DNA of 64,000 nt from an uncultured Dokdonia sp. (GTDB lineage Bacteria > Bacteroidota > Bacteroidia > Flavobacteriales > Flavobacteriaceae). Shown here piece by piece: positions 6,968 to 16,006 of this stretch. The stretch lies in contig CANNDF010000003.1 of assembly GCA_947503305.1 (NCBI GenBank), forward strand, positions 310,001 through 374,000. The letters run 5' to 3'. A program made the position numbers and the translations under genes. The stretch's first letter is position 1. Every line of letters starts with the position of its first letter. The notes beneath the pieces were generated by a model. It saw only the letters and a list, made by a program, of their open reading frames with translations. It searched no databases and was not told the origin of the DNA.

Positions 6968-9295
6968 ATGTCCACAACTACCCAAAAAGTCCCATTCGGT
7001 CAGAAAGTAGCTTTCGGTATCGGAATGCTAGCTAATCAAATGTTTCCTGCAGCCTTAGGAATATTTATGGTGGTACTTGTTCAAGATTTAGGATTTCCTG
7101 GTTGGATGTGGGGAGTTATTTATTTCTTTCCTAGAATATTTGATACGTTCACAGACCCTATTATGGGCTATATTTCAGATAATACCAAGTCCAAATGGGG
7201 CCGAAGACGACAATATGTGATTCTAGGCGGTATTATTATGGGTACAGCATTTATTGTTATGTGGCAACTCTATAAGGGAGCTGGTATTGACTATAATTTT
7301 ACCTACTTTATGATTTGGTCATTTATATTTTACTTGGGTATTACCATTTTTAGTGTCCCTTATGTAGCTATGGGCTATGAGATGAGTAATGATTTCCATG
7401 AAAGAACGAGTATTATGGCAACTGCACAATGGATTGGACAGTGGGCATGGGTAATTGCTCCATGGTTTTGGGTGATTATGTATGACCCAGAATGGTTCGA
7501 ATCGGCAGAAGTCGCTACGCGATCACTTGCCGTTTGGGTAGGGGTTATTTTTGCCATTTGTGCTATTATACCCGGTATATTTATTAAAAGTAAGTCGACA
7601 TTAGACGAAGACTATTCTCCACTCAATTTTAAAAGCATAGGAAATAGTCTGAAAGAAATAGGACAAGGTTTTGTAACGGCATTTAAAATGCAACCATTTA
7701 GAAAGCTCTGTATAGCAACCTTCATGGTTTATAATGCTTTTATGACCATTGCTTCTTTCTCATTTTTTATTATCGTCTATCATCTTTTTGGTGGTGATGC
7801 TGGTGCTGCTGGTATATGGCCAACATTATTTGGCTGTTTAGGTGCGTTAGGAACTACCTTTATGGTGATTCCTATAGTAACAAGAATATCTAAGAAGTTA
7901 GGTAAAAAGAAAGCCTTCTTGATATCCCAAGCAATTTCTATTGTTGGATATATTATGCTGTGGTTTTTATTTGTTCCAGGCAAACCATATTTATTCATTT
8001 TTGCATTACCCTTTTTCTCTTTTGGGATAGGGAGCTTGTTTGTCTTAATGATGTCTATGACCGCAGATGTTATTGACTTAGATGAGTTAAATACAGGACT
8101 AAGACGAGAAGGAATTTTTGGAGCCATCTATTGGTGGATGGTAAAATTTGGGTTTGCAATTGCTGGAGGATTAAGTGGCGTTATTATGAGTTCGGTAGGT
8201 TTTGATTCAGGAGTTACTGTTCAACCAGAAGGTGCTATTGAAGGATTACGATTATCTTTCTCAGGAATTCCTATATTAGGAACACTCATCGCTATGCTTG
8301 TAATGCGTAATTATAGTGTCACTGAAGAAACTGCAAATGAAGTTCGTAAAAAACTAGAAGCACGTAAAAAACCAACTTCTTTCTATCAAACAGGTAAGCT
8401 AGCATCATTAATGAGCGCTTCTATAGATACCGATTCAAAATATGATATTGACTTTAGTAGTATGTCTACTGATGAGATAAAATCCTTATTTACAAAATCA
8501 TTAAATAATGGGTTACATGGTATCTGTTTTAGCCCATATACAGAAGGTCAAAATGTTGGCGATCTATTATCAGAAGAGCAAATACAACGTCGTATGGATG
8601 TCATTGCTCCTCATACACAATGGGTGCGTTCATTCTCCTGTACACATGGAAACGAATTTATCCCTAAAGCAGCACGTAATAAAGGATTAACAACCATGGT
8701 AGGTGCTTGGATTGGAAGTGATAAAAATCAAAATAATATAGAAATTGATTCTCTCATACAACTTGGAAAGAATAAGCTTGTAGATATTGCTGTCGTAGGT
8801 AATGAAGTTCTTATGAGAAATGATTTAAATATTCAAGAAATAATAGCATACATTAATAAAGTTAAAGAAGAATTACCGGGTATCCCTGTAGGATATGTAG
8901 ATGCCTACTATCAGTTCCATGATCACCCTGAGCTTATAGAGATTTGTGATGTAATATTGATAAACTGTTACCCCTTCTGGGAAGGAAGCAGTATAGAGGG
9001 AGCTTCCAGCTATTTAAGACAAATGTATACTGTCACAAAAAATATTTCAAAAGGGAAACCAGTAATTATTACAGAAACGGGGTGGCCTAACCAAGGAGAT
9101 AACGTAGAAGGTGCTATACCAACTACAGAAAATGCTATGAAATACTTCATTTCGGCTAGTAATATGTCTAAAAAGAGTTCTATACCTCTATTCTATTTCT
9201 CTTCATTTGATGAGTCTTGGAAAGTACATCAAGAGGGAGATGTTGGAGCTCGTTGGGGGGTATGGGATTCTAGTGAAAAATTAAAATATAAATAA
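6968..9295 (+). CDS. GPH-type MFS sugar symporter fused to a C-terminal GH17 domain
   Basis: 775 aa in one uninterrupted frame. Residues ~10-455 are a 12-helix glycoside-pentoside-hexuronide symporter: DPIMGYISD at 63-71 followed by KWGRRR, and an RREGIFGAIYWW segment near residue 380. After a charged linker, residues ~490-775 form a complete GH17 domain with acid/base Glu613 (VVGNEVL) and nucleophile Glu703 (ITETGWP). MFS permeases have both termini inside, so the hydrolase should sit on the cytoplasmic face at the exit of the permease. The predicted role is import of laminari-oligosaccharides coupled to hydrolysis or transglycosylation. The downstream gene is a free copy of the same GH17 domain, only 2 bp away. 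Confidence 0.92.
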   Translation: MSTTTQKVPFGQKVAFGIGMLANQMFPAALGIFMVVLVQDLGFPGWMWGVIYFFPRIFDTFTDPIMGYISDNTKSKWGRRRQYVILGGIIMGTAFIVMWQLYKGAGIDYNFTYFMIWSFIFYLGITIFSVPYVAMGYEMSNDFHERTSIMATAQWIGQWAWVIAPWFWVIMYDPEWFESAEVATRSLAVWVGVIFAICAIIPGIFIKSKSTLDEDYSPLNFKSIGNSLKEIGQGFVTAFKMQPFRKLCIATFMVYNAFMTIASFSFFIIVYHLFGGDAGAAGIWPTLFGCLGALGTTFMVIPIVTRISKKLGKKKAFLISQAISIVGYIMLWFLFVPGKPYLFIFALPFFSFGIGSLFVLMMSMTADVIDLDELNTGLRREGIFGAIYWWMVKFGFAIAGGLSGVIMSSVGFDSGVTVQPEGAIEGLRLSFSGIPILGTLIAMLVMRNYSVTEETANEVRKKLEARKKPTSFYQTGKLASLMSASIDTDSKYDIDFSSMSTDEIKSLFTKSLNNGLHGICFSPYTEGQNVGDLLSEEQIQRRMDVIAPHTQWVRSFSCTHGNEFIPKAARNKGLTTMVGAWIGSDKNQNNIEIDSLIQLGKNKLVDIAVVGNEVLMRNDLNIQEIIAYINKVKEELPGIPVGYVDAYYQFHDHPELIEICDVILINCYPFWEGSSIEGASSYLRQMYTVTKNISKGKPVIITETGWPNQGDNVEGAIPTTENAMKYFISASNMSKKSSIPLFYFSSFDESWKVHQEGDVGARWGVWDSSEKLKYK

Positions 9296-9297
9296 AC

Positions 9298-10206
9298 ATG
9301 TCATATAGAGGAGATCATAATTATCTACTTGAAAACACAGATTTCACAAGTCATAAAGGTGTTGATTTTAGTAAATATTCAACAAAAGCATTAGAAAAGC
9401 TATGGAGAGAGACCCTAAAAGCAGGGATGCATGGACTATGCTTTAGTATGTATGAAGATGCACAAAAGCCTGGAGATATCATTACAGAAGCACAAGTAGA
9501 ACGACGTATAAAAATTATAAAGCCCTATACAAAATGGGTCCGTTCTTTCTCTTGTATAGAAGGTAATGAATATGTACCTCGTATTGCTCATAGACACGGT
9601 CTTAAGACTATGGTTGGTGCTTGGCTAGGAGATGATTTACAAAAAAATGAAGACGAGATAGAAGCATTGATTACACTTGCTAAAGAAGGATGTGTAGATA
9701 TTGCTGCAGTTGGAAATGAAGTGATGTATCGAGGTGATTTAACAGAAGAACAGTTACTAGACTATCTACATATTGTAAAAGAAGCATTACCCGATATCCC
9801 AGTAGGATATGTAGATGCTTATTATGAATTTTCACATAGGCCAAGGATTACAGAGGCTTGTGATATTATACTTGCCAATTGTTATCCATATTGGGAAGGC
9901 TGTGATATAGATAATTCACTTAATCATATGCAACAGATGTTTGGACAAGCTACCCATGCTGCAAATGGAAAAAAAGTAATCATTACTGAAACTGGATGGC
10001 CTAGTCACGGAACCAACTTAAAAGGTGCCTATCCCTCAGAAGAAAATGCAATGAAATATTTTATCAATTCACAAGCCTGGTCGGCAAAAGATAATATAGA
10101 TCTATTCTATTTTTCGTCATTTGATGAATCATGGAAAGTAGGCCCTGAAGGTGATGTAGGTGCCTATTGGGGACTCTGGGACAAGCATGAAAACTTAAAG
10201 TTTTAA
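9298..10206 (+). CDS. Cytosolic GH17 beta-1,3-glucanase/transglycosylase (paralogue of the fusion domain)
   Basis: 302 aa without a signal peptide. It can be followed almost residue by residue against the C-terminal domain of the preceding fusion: shared WVRSFSC, TMVGAW, IPVGYVDAYY, IITETGWP and LFYFSSFDESWKV blocks. Catalytic Glu141 (AVGNEVM) and Glu231 (TETGWPS) are intact. The start is 2 bp after the fusion stop, so the genes are translationally linked. It is compact and probably acts on imported short oligosaccharides. The tandem arrangement points to duplication, with one copy captured by the transporter gene or released from it. Confidence 0.9.
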   Translation: MSYRGDHNYLLENTDFTSHKGVDFSKYSTKALEKLWRETLKAGMHGLCFSMYEDAQKPGDIITEAQVERRIKIIKPYTKWVRSFSCIEGNEYVPRIAHRHGLKTMVGAWLGDDLQKNEDEIEALITLAKEGCVDIAAVGNEVMYRGDLTEEQLLDYLHIVKEALPDIPVGYVDAYYEFSHRPRITEACDIILANCYPYWEGCDIDNSLNHMQQMFGQATHAANGKKVIITETGWPSHGTNLKGAYPSEENAMKYFINSQAWSAKDNIDLFYFSSFDESWKVGPEGDVGAYWGLWDKHENLKF

Positions 10207-10941: not shown

Positions 10942-13659
10942 TCAATAATTATTTATTTTGATAAATCTATTATTAATTTCATTTTTCCTAAATGCTTCTT
11001 CATCATCAGTAATTAAAGTTACTTTCTGCATTAAATCTTTAAAATTATACACATCTACTTTATCATAATGGTCAACAAAAAATTCATTACTAAACTTTTT
11101 ATTATTAGGGTCAGGAAATTTGTTGTAGATTTTATAATTTCCTGCTATTATATACACATAAGGATTAGGTTTTAAAACGCTCTCACCAAAATATGAAATA
11201 AGATGTTCTACTCTTTTTTGATAATTATTAGTATGAAATAAACGCTGGTTTGAAACATCATAAGCTTCCGCTCCAGCAGTCATAACCAGTAAATCATTCT
11301 TACCTAATAATCGTTTAATAAGTTCATCAGAACCTGTAAATGTATTCCTTACTTGTTTACTATCTAATTCAAATCGTAAAATACGAGTATCTAGCATCTC
11401 ATCACTATCCTCTTTCATTACTATAATTTTTACATCATTTTTATTTAATAAATCTTTATTATTCTGTAGTGTACGTTTAACAATACTTGAATACCCAAAA
11501 ACTAAAATATAAATATTATCAAATTCTTGTTTTCCTATTAACTCAGTAAACTTTATTTTAAATGATTCCGATATAGTTTTCATTGCTTTATTATGCTTAG
11601 AGGCAACATCTTCTCTAATATTACTAAAAAGCTTTGTATGTTTTTTTATCTCTAAATTTAGTTCAGTTTTATTATTCTTATTTTTCCAATTTTTAATCTT
11701 TTCAAGATGTTTAGGAACATTGATTTTATATAGATTTTTATTGTAATAGTTTTCAAGAGTAATTAATAAGTCAAATCCATAATGTGCTTTACTTCTATGT
11801 AATAGAGCTATAAAAGGGTCATATTGATTTGTTTCCCTTATATATCTTAAACTTTTATATTTTTCATAATTTGTATTGCTTTTTAGTGTATCATCAACTT
11901 TATTAATTAATTGTGATAATCCTCTAGTGAAAATTCGCAATGATTTAGATGTCGAAGTAACAGAAGCCATATCGATTATATCATCATGTATTTCGTCAAA
12001 AATTATTAACTGTGCTAAGTATTTTTTCCTTTTATATTCTATATCATAGATTATTGAATAAACTTCATCAATAGCCTTGATTAACTCTTTACAATATGAT
12101 TTTTTTTCTCTTGTTCCATCTTTTTCTTGATTTTCAATATTCTCAATAATATATTGAACAGTTGATACAGAATGGATTAATGTATATACTCTTTGTTCAA
12201 AAATATGAGGTGAAAATTTAGTTATATGGTGACTGAACTCAATTGGAAGTATTCCTAATAAACGTGTTACTTCAAGTTTCAACGATTTAGCATTAGAGTT
12301 TATTTTGGTTTTATTTTTCCTAAACTCATTTATATCTTTATATAACTCAGAAAAAAAATCTTTTATAAATTCTTTTAATTTTAATTGTAACTTAATTTCT
12401 ACTTCTTGAATATTTTCATAAAATTTATTTCTTGTCTCTTTATCTGATATTATTTCTAATAATATTTCTATACTTTTAGTATTAAGCTTTTTAACTTTTT
12501 CAAGTTCTATATTTGGAATTTTTGTTATTTCATCTTTTTTGAAAATTTCTAATAGGCTTTTTTTATCATCTCTTTTAAAAAAATCATCTAAATCATTTAA
12601 TCCAATTTTATTTTTATTAATATAATTTTGGAGGCTTTTTGAAAATTTATCAATAATTCCATCTCGCATTTCAAGTATTTCATCTTGCTTTTTTATTTCT
12701 TTTCTATAAAAATTAAATGGAGAATCACTTATAGATTTTAACATATAAAGCGTTTCATCAATGTTTTTTTTGTTATCACATTTAACTACAGTCGTAATAA
12801 AATCATCACACAATTCCCAATAGCGTAAAGAGACAAAGGTGAGCATTTCACTCCTATTCAAATTACTTAAACTAATAGTTGCATATTGATCAGATGGTAA
12901 CTTATAAATTATTTGACGCAAGAATAATGGAAAAAGAGTTATTAATAAAACTATCGTCATAAGTATAGAAACTAATAATTTTATAAAAGTTTTATAACTA
13001 TCATTAATTTGATTATAATAATATTGTGTTGGATTTTTTTCATTAAGATTTTCGTCTAATTGTAAATGAGTTTTAGCAGCTAAAGAATCGATTACAGAAG
13101 AAGACATAACAAAAAGACTATCTGTATTTTTAAAATTATTTCTACTATATATAGTTACGTATATATCATCATTATTATGTAATAACTTTTGCGGTTCATT
13201 CATACTCCCTTCCAAAACACCATATAAAATTGTAAAGATTATAGAACCAAAAGCAATACCTAAGGCAAATATTGCACCTGCATTAGACCAAAATGACACC
13301 CTTATATTATTAAAGCGAATCCAATTAAGTGTATTTATCTTTTTAAAAGAACCATTAAAATATTTTCTTTTAAATATCTTCTTAATACTTCTTGTTAATT
13401 TTTTATCTATTGGATTATAAAAAGTGTAAGGACCATGTGCAGAAAATATAGTAAATGGAATAACCCTAAAAAAAACGTTTAACATTAAAAATATTATATA
13501 CCCTATTAATAATGTAAATAATGCAACTATGTTGATTATTTTTAGAAAGAAACATCCAAATAATATAAGAGGAGGTAAAAGTAATGACATAAGAATTAGT
13601 AATAGCTTTCCTATCAATTTAATTCTAAACCATAATCTTTTTAAGAAAAGTATTATCAC
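10942..13659 (-). CDS. Multi-pass membrane protein with eIF2B/ISOCOT-like C-terminal domain
   Basis: 905 aa with a GTG start; an in-frame stop lies a short way upstream and no ATG is available. The N-terminus has two to three closely spaced hydrophobic segments (about residues 10-70), another near 125-150 and another near 222-250. A long, Lys/Glu/Ile-rich helical region follows. From about residue 713 the pattern resembles the Rossmann-like part of initiation factor 2B/sugar-phosphate isomerase (ISOCOT) proteins: IYILVFGYSSIVKRTL, VKIIVMKEDSD, and a loop containing MTAGAEAYD near 790. That fold match is by eye and tentative. The gene is visibly more AT-rich than its neighbours, which may indicate transfer. 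No function is assigned. Confidence 0.6.
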   Translation of the reverse strand: MIILFLKRLWFRIKLIGKLLLILMSLLLPPLILFGCFFLKIINIVALFTLLIGYIIFLMLNVFFRVIPFTIFSAHGPYTFYNPIDKKLTRSIKKIFKRKYFNGSFKKINTLNWIRFNNIRVSFWSNAGAIFALGIAFGSIIFTILYGVLEGSMNEPQKLLHNNDDIYVTIYSRNNFKNTDSLFVMSSSVIDSLAAKTHLQLDENLNEKNPTQYYYNQINDSYKTFIKLLVSILMTIVLLITLFPLFLRQIIYKLPSDQYATISLSNLNRSEMLTFVSLRYWELCDDFITTVVKCDNKKNIDETLYMLKSISDSPFNFYRKEIKKQDEILEMRDGIIDKFSKSLQNYINKNKIGLNDLDDFFKRDDKKSLLEIFKKDEITKIPNIELEKVKKLNTKSIEILLEIISDKETRNKFYENIQEVEIKLQLKLKEFIKDFFSELYKDINEFRKNKTKINSNAKSLKLEVTRLLGILPIEFSHHITKFSPHIFEQRVYTLIHSVSTVQYIIENIENQEKDGTREKKSYCKELIKAIDEVYSIIYDIEYKRKKYLAQLIIFDEIHDDIIDMASVTSTSKSLRIFTRGLSQLINKVDDTLKSNTNYEKYKSLRYIRETNQYDPFIALLHRSKAHYGFDLLITLENYYNKNLYKINVPKHLEKIKNWKNKNNKTELNLEIKKHTKLFSNIREDVASKHNKAMKTISESFKIKFTELIGKQEFDNIYILVFGYSSIVKRTLQNNKDLLNKNDVKIIVMKEDSDEMLDTRILRFELDSKQVRNTFTGSDELIKRLLGKNDLLVMTAGAEAYDVSNQRLFHTNNYQKRVEHLISYFGESVLKPNPYVYIIAGNYKIYNKFPDPNNKKFSNEFFVDHYDKVDVYNFKDLMQKVTLITDDEEAFRKNEINNRFIKINNY

Positions 13660-13796
13660 ATTCTTGCAGTTATTTTTTATTTAAAATCATTAAAATATAC
13701 AAAATATACAATAACGCAATATACTCATAAACAGATGATTATATTAATTAAAATATAATTATTTTTTCTAGAGTCAAGAAGTAATATATTTTTACT

Positions 13797-13804
13797 TAAT
13801 TTTG
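13797..13804 (+). promoter_or_regulatory. Candidate -7 box TAATTTTG upstream of the leader ORF
   Basis: Matches the Bacteroidota TAnnTTTG consensus and lies 19 bp before the leader ATG. No TTG is present at the expected -33 spacing, so support is partial. Confidence 0.5.
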
Positions 13805-13822
13805 AAGAATAAACAGATAACA

Positions 13823-13891
13823 ATGAAGACATTCAATACATATAATCAGAGATCGGTGGTGAAAACACCCGTCGGATGGTATGTATTGTAG
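13823..13891 (+). CDS. 22-aa leader peptide of a transcription attenuator
   Basis: Short ORF reading MKTFNTYNQRSVVKTPVGWY then VL and TAG. It lies between a -7 box and a strong terminator hairpin upstream of the MFS exporter gene. A small hairpin, GGTG-AAAA-CACC (13858-13869), falls within it. The following GTCGGA (13871-13876, the Val-Gly codons) is complementary to TCCGAC (13926-13931) of the terminator 5' arm. Ribosome position on this ORF could therefore decide between antiterminator and terminator. It is too short for routine gene calling. The regulatory role is inferred from architecture; the inducing signal is not visible. Confidence 0.65.
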   Translation: MKTFNTYNQRSVVKTPVGWYVL

Positions 13892-13919
13892 CTATATAAG
13901 TATAACTAGTAACAATTTC

Positions 13920-13955
13920 AAAAAGTCCGACCAATGTGTCGGACTTTTTATTTTT
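13920..13955 (+). terminator. Attenuator terminator upstream of the MFS/DJ-1 operon
   Basis: 12-bp perfect stem (AAAAAGTCCGAC with its complement at 13938-13949), 6-nt loop CAATGT, then a T-rich tail. It lies in the leader, 45 bp before the MFS start codon, rather than after an operon. The 5' arm can pair alternatively with GTCGGA in the leader ORF. A third GTCGG at 13961-13965 could also compete. Confidence 0.8.
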
Positions 13956-14000
13956 AGAAAGTCGGCGCAGGATTTTATTTAATCAGAAAATTACCCAATT

Positions 14001-15245
14001 ATGAAACTATTACTGCGCAATTATATAAGAACCTTTGAAGGACTCTCCAAAGAAATTTGGTGGTTATCCCTTATTACTCTCATAAATAGAACGGGAGCTA
14101 TGGTTATCCCATTCCTTTCATTGTATTTAAAAGAAGATCTGCATTTTACAATTCCAGATGTAGGCTGGGTCATGACTGCATTTGGAATTGGCTCATTTTT
14201 TGGAGCTTGGCTCGGAGGAAAATTAACCACACTTATAGGATATTATAAAGTGATTCTATTAAGTCTAGTTCTTACTGGAGTCAACTTTTTATGGGTAATG
14301 CATGTCGAAGAATTCTGGATGATGTGTTTTGCATTTTTCATCCTCATTGCTATTTCAGATATAGGAAGGCCTGCATTTTTTGTAGCATTAAGTGCCTATT
14401 CAAAGCCTGAAAATAAAACAAGATCACTTACCCTTATTCGTCTTGCAATTAACCTTGGATTTTCTGCAGGACCCGCAGTAGGAGGTTTTCTTATTGCCAC
14501 ACTTGGGTATGAATCACTATTCTATGTAGATGGTATTACATGTATTTTGGCTGGGATCCTTATGACACAAACCCTGCATCCAAAAAAGGTAAAAGAACTG
14601 GATAAAGAAATACCTGTAGAAAACCCTTTACCACCACAAAATGACCTGCCATATCTATTATTCTTAGTAGCGCTAGCCTTATTTGGAATTATATTTGTGC
14701 AATATTTTTCTACTGTTCCCCTTTTTTATAGAGACATACATCATTTAAGTGAAGATGCTATTGGGCTTATTTTGGCAATGAACGGTTTTCTGATTGTTAT
14801 CTTGGAAATGCCATTGGTAGCCTGGATGGAAAGTAAAAAATGGTCAAACATTAAAAATACCATCGTAGGATTATTACTTACAGGAGTAAGTTTCTTATTA
14901 CTCCTATGGGAATCATGGATAGGCATTGTCGTAATAGGTATGATCATTGCTACTATAGGTGAGATGATTTCATTCCCTTTTAGCAATAAATTTGCCTTAG
15001 ATCGCTCCAAAAAAGGAAAACAAGGTTCCTATATGGGAGTTTATGCAATGTCATTTTCTGTAGCACATATCTTTGGCCACAATAGCGGGATGCAAATTAC
15101 CGCTCATTATGGATATACGATAACATGGGGTTTCCTAATTGCACTCACTGTAATAGCATGGTTGTTATTATATATTACCAATAGACTTCTTGGAAAAGAA
15201 AAAACGATAGAAGCAGTATCTTTAAAATCAAATTTAGAATCATGA
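14001..15245 (+). CDS. MFS (DHA1-like) drug/metabolite exporter
   Basis: 414 aa with 12 predicted hydrophobic helices. A helix 2-3 loop ending FGIGSFFGAWLGGKLTTLIG and a SAGPAVGGFLI motif in TM5 (motif C-like, typical of antiporter/exporter MFS) suggest efflux. The substrate cannot be read from the sequence. It overlaps the DJ-1 gene by 4 bp (ATGA), so the two are coupled. Expression is probably controlled by the leader peptide and terminator just upstream, an arrangement known for some antibiotic-inducible transporters in other phyla. Confidence 0.85.
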   Translation: MKLLLRNYIRTFEGLSKEIWWLSLITLINRTGAMVIPFLSLYLKEDLHFTIPDVGWVMTAFGIGSFFGAWLGGKLTTLIGYYKVILLSLVLTGVNFLWVMHVEEFWMMCFAFFILIAISDIGRPAFFVALSAYSKPENKTRSLTLIRLAINLGFSAGPAVGGFLIATLGYESLFYVDGITCILAGILMTQTLHPKKVKELDKEIPVENPLPPQNDLPYLLFLVALALFGIIFVQYFSTVPLFYRDIHHLSEDAIGLILAMNGFLIVILEMPLVAWMESKKWSNIKNTIVGLLLTGVSFLLLLWESWIGIVVIGMIIATIGEMISFPFSNKFALDRSKKGKQGSYMGVYAMSFSVAHIFGHNSGMQITAHYGYTITWGFLIALTVIAWLLLYITNRLLGKEKTIEAVSLKSNLES

Positions 15246-16006
15246 AACAACTTATTTATAGTACACTACTCATTTTACTTTTTTCATGCACAAATACAAG
15301 TACATCAAAAATAAATGACAATCAAATAACTCGGGAAAGTTCTATACACGCTTTCGCGAAAGCGACCCCAGAATTAAAGGAAGGTAGATATAATGTTGCT
15401 TTCCTCATTATGGATGGCACCTATAATACGGAACTTACAGCACCCTTTGATATTTTTCAACACACTCAATATCGTGAGAATATCAAACAGATGAATGTAT
15501 TTACAGTAGCAAATACACTAGATCCTATTCGAACATTTGAAGGCATGTATCTCCTACCTGATTTTGATTATACAGCATCCGATCTTCCTAAAATTGATAT
15601 CCTAGTAGTTCCTAGTGCAGAGCATCATTTAGATACAGACTTGGAAGATGAGATAATGATCAATTTTGTAAAAGAAGTAGATGAAAATGCCCTTTTTATG
15701 ACTTCCCATTGTGATGGCGCTTTTGTATTGGCAAAGGCTGGGGTCCTTGATCATAAAGTATCGACTACTTTTCCTAGCGATATAAATAAAATGCGTGAAA
15801 CATTCCCTCAGTTAGATATTAGAAAAGAAGTCCTATTTGTACATGATGGAAAGTACATTACTTCCGCAGGAGGAGCAAAAAGTTTTGAAGCCGCACTTTA
15901 TCTCGCAGAACATCTCTATGGTGCAGAAATAGCACGATCTCTAGCAGGTGGGCTCGTGATAGATTGGAAACTAGAAGATGTACCTCATGTAATTATAAAG
16001 CAGTAA
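15242..16006 (+). CDS. DJ-1/PfpI-family lipoprotein
   Basis: 254 aa with a lipoprotein signal (LLFSC, Cys at about residue 16), unusual because most DJ-1/PfpI relatives are cytosolic. The domain spans ~48-250, with VAFLIMDGTYNTELTAPFD, nucleophile-elbow Cys157 in TSHCDGAFVLA, and a TSAGGAKSFEAALYLAEH segment as in the AraC-associated GATase1-like subgroup. The DNA-binding half of that subgroup is absent. The N-terminal linker contains the AFAKA peptide specified by a palindrome copy. It overlaps the MFS gene and shares its operon. The reaction is unknown. Confidence 0.85.
   Translation: MKQLIYSTLLILLFSCTNTSTSKINDNQITRESSIHAFAKATPELKEGRYNVAFLIMDGTYNTELTAPFDIFQHTQYRENIKQMNVFTVANTLDPIRTFEGMYLLPDFDYTASDLPKIDILVVPSAEHHLDTDLEDEIMINFVKEVDENALFMTSHCDGAFVLAKAGVLDHKVSTTFPSDINKMRETFPQLDIRKEVLFVHDGKYITSAGGAKSFEAALYLAEHLYGAEIARSLAGGLVIDWKLEDVPHVIIKQ
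15350..15363. repeat. Palindrome GCTTTCGCGAAAGC, copy 3 (in DJ-1 gene)
   Basis: Perfect copy inside the coding sequence, in the frame that reads AFAKA, in the linker between the lipoprotein anchor and the enzyme domain. Confidence 0.95.

Follow-up and report, generated by a model that had tools for sequence, protein, structure and literature searches.

A candidate ribosome-mediated transcription attenuator ahead of an MFS exporter gene in Dokdonia and many other genera of Flavobacteriaceae

The window, a 64,000-nt stretch of DNA from an uncultured Dokdonia sp., contains an MFS exporter gene that is preceded by a short leader region and followed by a gene encoding a DJ-1/PfpI-family lipoprotein-like protein (Table 1). 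Among solved sequences, the MFS protein is nearest to NorA (E 7.3e-12), and none of 25 of the 28 NCBIfam families listed for it reaches its cutoff. The MFS and DJ-1/PfpI genes are probably in the same operon. Among the matches listed, 41 of the 80 named loci have a DJ-1 homologue no more than 3 kb away from the MFS gene, and in one locus (L131) a glyoxalase-family gene lies between the two. We rejected a constant association between the DJ-1 gene and the leader, because Aquimarina loci lack the leader but do have the gene.

An earlier note on this DNA had read a -7 box and a 22-aa ORF ahead of the exporter gene, then a small hairpin and a strong terminator 45 bp before the gene. The box and the ORF are indeed present in the sequence, and the small hairpin appears in the predicted fold, where 13855-13858 pair with 13866-13869. 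The strong terminator is also there, but the distance was wrong, since 51 nt lie between its end (13949) and the MFS start (14001). Direct reading further bears out the complementarity that had been pointed out between GTCGGA (13871-13876) in the leader and TCCGAC (13926-13931) in the terminator arm. The predicted fold of the whole region (13812-13960) is better than that of 199 of 200 dinucleotide shuffles (z -3.62).

Table 1. Features of the exporter locus in the Dokdonia window, with the aromatic leaders found in other genomes in the last row.
Feature	Position	Strand	Basis and remarks
Upstream neighbour, 905-aa protein	10942-13659	-	No convincing family; KMP11 below cutoff
-7 box TANNTTTG	13797-13804	+	Read from sequence; presumed promoter of the leader transcript
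Leader ORF, 22 codons and TAG	13823-13891	+	Sequence; reads MKTFNTYNQRSVVKTPVGWYVL
Helix P1, 5' arm (segment 1), within the leader ORF	13834-13843	+	Fold; swap test, 106 leaders
Small apical hairpin	13855-13869	+	Fold
Antiterminator strand GTCGGAT, part of segment 2	13871-13877	+	Pairs with 13925-13931; covariation
Helix P1, 3' arm (segment 2), directly before the leader stop codon	13879-13888	+	Fold; swap test
Linker AGTAACAAT	13908-13916	+	Swap test p 0.0015; fold of truncated leader
Intrinsic terminator (segments 3 and 4)	13920-13949	+	12 bp, loop of 6, T run
MFS exporter gene, 414 aa	14001-15245	+	Pfam MFS_1 E 8.4e-49; export predicted
DJ-1/PfpI-family lipoprotein-like gene, overlaps MFS stop	15242-16006	+	Pfam DJ-1_PfpI E 3.4e-16
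F/Y-rich leaders with terminators before prephenate dehydratase-like genes	L267-L271, L273-L275, L277-L280, L282

Homologs of the exporter (hereafter the pump) were collected by protein search, which gave matches in 40 of 59 relatives (five of these 40, with E from 1e-16 to 1e-6, are weak and were not counted as orthologs), in 145 of 249 genomes of the family at E<=1e-60, and in 81 of 345 genomes of the phylum at E<=1e-40. A scan of named records contributed at least 80 pump loci. The upstream regions of 215 loci were reduced to 197 unique ones by the removal of 18 duplicates, and L026 was dropped because its gene start was not found. A strong terminator near the pump gene is present in 150 of the 197 regions and absent in 47; an ORF satisfying our rule accompanies it in 141 of the 150, while nine fail the rule. 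From the 141 leaders, 106 that are less than 80% alike were kept and 35 were set aside as at least 80% alike to another. In a family sample comprising 119 of the 145 matched loci, the leader is present by rule in 97, with the remainder consisting of 16 loci lacking a strong terminator and six having a terminator but no ORF by the rule. All 16 upstream regions from the genus of the window show an ATG ORF and a terminator by eye, of which the rule passes 12; the other four (L003 and L005-L007) apparently fail because only three T follow in a row after the stem. As the rule misses four of 16 leaders that are visible by eye, the presence counts given here are lower bounds. Many orthologs of the MFS gene, across numerous genera of the family, have this leader layout upstream. 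It is not universal, since no strong terminator was found before the pump in any of the 24 Aquimarina-titled loci, nor in any of the 18 loci from g147, a large genus within the family. Flavobacterial-type pumps are also found on contigs filed under Gracilibacteria and Chlorobiota genomes (L099 and L104), which are likely binning errors. Upstream of the ORF, the TANNTTTG box occurs at -45 to -12 from the leader ATG in 76 of the 106 leaders, against 3.6 expected from shuffles.

The earlier note had suggested a covariation search of the leader, and in this search the antiterminator follows the changes in the terminator and P1 covaries too. Among the 106 leaders, eight of the nine consensus pairs of the terminator have changes on both sides with the pair kept. 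In the column analysis, the top eight pairs belong to the terminator and the ninth is an antiterminator pair (98-168, z 6.3), although some pairs outside the model score nearly as high (148-196, z 6.2; 40-164, z 5.9), and RNAalifold on the MAFFT alignment A2 recovered the terminator alone. The antiterminator strand lies 48-53 nt before the terminator in most leaders, and its variants are matched by those of the terminator arm, as with AGCTGGAT and GTCCAGCT in L145, ACCGGAT and GTCCGGT in L203, and GCCAGAC and GTCTGGC in L086. On the alignment, 81.0% of the antiterminator cells are paired, compared with 18.8-48.4% when the partner is slid, and 64 cells are changed on both sides, compared with 29.3 in shuffles; the covariation score was reached by none of 500 shuffles. 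Counted by pair rather than by cell, double changes in the antiterminator (six) do not exceed those in shuffles (5.5; reached by 281 of 500).

Because the register of P1 differs between clades by eye, P1 and the antiterminator were also tested without an alignment. The antiterminator strand of a leader scores 16.08 with its own terminator and 13.10 with swapped terminators, while two control regions give 7.45 and 7.96, or 8.77 and 8.80, for own and swapped partners; leaders pair better with their own terminator than with those of others at p 7e-16. The swap test for P1 on the 106 leaders likewise favors the own arm (-12.96 vs. -9.52 kcal/mol, p 3.5e-15), and three control region pairs show no such preference (p 0.38-0.5). 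An extension of the antiterminator into the linker, in which AGTAACAAT may pair with the 3' arm of P1, gives a weaker signal than P1 or the antiterminator (p 0.0015). These results support the earlier claim that terminator and antiterminator would exclude each other in a leader-peptide attenuator, the pairing covarying across much of the Flavobacteriaceae. The same note had made the attenuator idea depend on conservation of the leader ORF and the pairing; as both are kept across relatives, the idea was not refuted.

The reading frame of the leader was assessed by blindly taking the first ATG at 88-115 nt before the terminator, which is present in 146 of the 150 terminator-bearing leaders. The frame of this ATG is open to -40 in 141 of the 146 leaders, compared with 22 and 32 for the other two frames, and as it is open far more often than the others, the leader ORF is very probably translated in the cell. 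In the 141 leaders satisfying the ORF rule, 19-38 nt separate the stop codon from the terminator downstream. No excess of synonymous changes was observed in 24 independent close pairs (0.23 in frame vs. 0.22 and 0.14), suggesting that no particular peptide is held and that it is the reading of the ORF, rather than the exact peptide, that is kept.

The peptides nevertheless have a peculiar composition. In codons 2-14, D, E, A, and G together make up 1.3% of residues, compared with 23.9% in 195 longer ORFs from the same loci (ORFs of at least 200 codons, a background in which the pump is therefore heavily represented) and 12.6% over the same codons of these longer ORFs, and 91 of the 106 leaders contain none of the four residues in this stretch. 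The depletion depends on the reading phase, with GA occurring six times at codon positions 1-2 and 46 and 86 times in the other phases, and it persists when the 51 peptide clusters are weighted alike. Since shuffling the whole ORF exaggerates the depletion of G-starting codons, it was also tested within codons 2-14, by phase, and against real ORFs. RNA motifs locked in one frame may account for part of it. Favored residues are T, Q, C, and Y; Leu and Phe are avoided. Thr is found in codons 2-14 in 0.97 of the 106 leaders, spread rather than repeated, and runs of the same residue are short (the longest being 1 or 2 in 99 of the 106). No residue string common to all pump leaders was seen, and the macrolide-type arrest motif (MRLR or +X+, of the Mef(E)L/ErmDL type) is not enriched (18 of 106 leaders vs. 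20.0 expected). Pairs of Ser/Thr (64 of 106 vs. 32.5 expected) and K/R followed by Q/K (63 of 106 vs. 21.6 expected) are enriched. When weighted by cluster, KQ remains above expectation (12.0 vs. 6.3) and QK does not (5.9 vs. 6.0). These enriched pairs weigh on one large peptide cluster, which accounts for 26 of the 106 leaders, and are absent from some leaders.

Genomes were then searched with a covariance model of the leaders (R1) and with a sequence pattern. In 149 genomes, 68 R1 rows reached E<=1e-4, of which 67 lie at the pump when places and ORFs are compared, a result that holds by construction since many of these genomes had supplied leaders for the training of R1. The sequence pattern gave 20 matches in 299 genomes, all 20 at the pump, and the reversed pattern gave none; the pattern misses the window's own leader. 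The one exception among the R1 rows is a strong leader copy in genome G164 (L257:1501-1652, E 1.7e-13) with no MFS gene within 3.2 kb, where the next gene, on the minus strand, encodes a Lrp/AsnC-type regulator that is AsnC-type by Pfam. This orphan leader was probably left behind by gene loss.

Another 49 R1 rows have E between 1e-4 and 0.01, including nine at the pump, two antisense to it, and 38 elsewhere. We considered whether the best 17 of these 38 represent the pump switch on other genes, and rejected this, as 13 of the 17 are aromatic amino-acid leaders, rich in F and Y and located before prephenate dehydratase-like genes (Table 1), with peptides such as MQNTNFTYFNFFYFFFNRRDEALYV. The downstream gene in L267, the sole one of the 13 checked with Pfam, has a PDT match. 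Of the remaining four, L272:197-259 encodes a leader with a Tyr run (MKNLNNTYYYYPILTRRIGQ) before a gene for a biopterin-dependent aromatic amino-acid hydroxylase, and nothing clear was found in L276, L281, and L283. The F/Y-rich leaders indicate that the same bacteria use classic amino-acid attenuation with a similar layout, and their residue runs are conspicuous where those of the pump leader are short.

The pump leader has the short ORF, the terminator, the antiterminator sharing a strand, and the 1:2 helix of a ribosome-mediated transcription attenuator, and on this sequence evidence we consider it highly probable that it is one, of the 1:2 / 2:3 / 3:4 type, working by the position of the ribosome whatever the signal. 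RNA polymerase would start just after the -7 box, and a ribosome would begin the 22-codon leader. Upon reaching the stop codon, the ribosome would cover segment 2 (the antiterminator strand and the 3' arm of P1), so that the terminator forms and the exporter stays off; after its departure, P1 would form, again followed by the terminator, and the exporter would still be off. A ribosome moving slowly or stalling within roughly the first half of the ORF would instead cover the 5' arm of P1 and leave segment 2 free to pair with the 5' arm of the terminator, allowing read-through into the MFS exporter and DJ-1 genes. The stop codon in the window lies directly behind the 3' arm of P1, where a terminating ribosome would block segment 2. 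We infer that ribosome position decides between terminator and antiterminator. The direction is probably that a slow or stalled ribosome turns the exporter on. Even when the first 11 codons are masked, equilibrium folding prefers the terminator to the antiterminator in all 10 leaders folded (in L001, -24.8 compared with -20.6 for the stretch ending after the 5' arm of the terminator), so the switch would have to act co-transcriptionally.

What the ribosome senses is a separate matter. By analogy with mef(E), bmrCD, and toiL, a drug signal seems likeliest for an exporter, and our guess is that the signal is inhibition of translation as such, the likeliest cause being ribosome-targeting compounds exported by the pump, rather than shortage of one amino acid. 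We tentatively suggest, as a possibility well short of probable, that the leader senses translation stress in general and that selection acts on the amino-acid classes in its peptide rather than on the sequence, the 51 clusters having no common motif. If true, a composition code would slow the ribosome or sensitize it to drugs over the first half of the ORF, which would be a new design of sensor leader, here in Bacteroidota; constrained composition without conserved sequence also poses a testable question on what stalls the ribosome. A narrower reading of the same attenuator, which we find rather doubtful, is that it is tuned to one drug class through nascent-peptide arrest, as with Mef(E)L or ErmCL. 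The controlled gene being an MFS exporter nearest to NorA, the preference for T, Q, C, and Y without acidic residues, and the enrichment of two of the three motifs tested (Ser/Thr pairs, and K/R then Q/K) are in line with it, and a streptococcal MFS pump controlled by a leader peptide and a terminator switch has been described (PMC4335068). The lack of a residue string seen in all leaders, of enrichment of +X+ and QK, and of a broad base for the enriched pairs, which weigh on a single cluster, argues against such tuning. So does the depletion of Ala, as Ala is the strongest chloramphenicol context.

The leader could also measure one charged tRNA, with the MFS protein moving amino acids or peptides; this, too, would be an attenuator, and its architecture is indeed that of the prephenate dehydratase leaders found by R1. 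Genes near the pump that were noticed by eye, Lrp/AsnC-like in L107, L113, L122, and L131 and LysE-like in L057, together with the AsnC-type regulator behind the orphan leader and the near-ubiquity of Thr, would fit. We nevertheless regard amino-acid sensing as improbable, because the regulatory codon run is lacking, Thr is spread along the peptide, and it is hard to explain why starvation should turn an exporter on. Slightly more improbable still is a riboswitch or a protein-bound leader whose ORF is unread. It would account for helices that covary while the peptide sequence is free, and P1 would also suit a ligand-controlled switch, but the ATG frame would not then be expected to be open so much more often than the other two, nor the extreme scarcity of D, E, A, and G codons to be phase-specific (to which frame-locked RNA motifs may add). 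In addition, an Rfam search of 13600-14200 returned seven matches up to E 1, none at gathering score (the best with 23.7 bits vs. 47). That the terminator simply ends an upstream transcript, with complementarity by chance, has a negligible probability in our view: AAAAGTCCGAC-type stems may serve as terminators at many places in these genomes, but the upstream neighbour is on the opposite strand, and the complementarity sits at a fixed place and covaries, which that of the control regions does not. A translational attenuator of the erm/tetQ type was not found here either, the hairpin being a T-run terminator that ends 51 nt before the MFS start.

The pump leader shares with Phe/Trp/His-type attenuators, including the prephenate dehydratase leaders of this family, the short ORF, the alternative helices, the stop codon within segment 2, and the intrinsic terminator, but it has no regulatory codon run and controls an exporter instead of a biosynthetic operon. 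In the streptococcal mef(E)/mel system, an MFS efflux gene is likewise preceded by a leader peptide and by an intrinsic terminator that competes with another fold; its leader, MTASMRLR, has a fixed MRLR-type arrest motif and is found on mobile elements (PMC4335068), while the pump leader shows no fixed motif and occurs across many genera of one family. In Bacillus subtilis, bmrB-bmrCD is induced by lincomycin, erythromycin, and chloramphenicol, and leader translation there decides transcriptional read-through of the exporter, as we propose for the pump leader, although bmrCD is an ABC transporter, its 53-residue leader itself harbours the stem-loops, and the phylum is another (PMC4191407). The toiL leader ORF of Escherichia coli is a general translation-stress sensor, as the pump leader may be, but acts through a ribosome-binding site and Rho rather than an intrinsic terminator, and on a toxin-antitoxin transcript (PMC12121999). 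Within Bacteroidota, the tetQ leader of Bacteroides, included in a review as a translational attenuator, is a similar case of attenuator control of a resistance gene; there, however, translation is attenuated and the gene encodes ribosome protection (PMC5418344).

The earlier remark that such control is little explored in Bacteroidota is fair, but the field is not empty, given tetQ (PMC5418344) and, in the accessible text of a flavobacterial transcriptome study, clues for leader-peptide attenuation before amino-acid operons (PMC9723704). In the literature searched (titles and abstract openings, mostly outside subscription journals), we found no description of the pump leader, and tetQ was the only resistance-linked Bacteroidota leader, as far as the accessible parts of these sources go. 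Nor is the pump leader mentioned in the available portions of PMC9723704 (which reports 64 structured leaders; supplements aside), PMC7366714, PMC8632094, and PMC10219788. If our reading is true, an efflux gene would be under the control of a chromosomal transcription attenuator in many genera of one Bacteroidota family, and since marine hosts such as Dokdonia carry this leader, one could ask which compounds slow their ribosomes.

Elsewhere in the window, at 6968-10206, a single ORF (775 aa) fuses an MFS_2 sugar transporter and a GH17-like domain, and is followed by a separate GH17-like gene.
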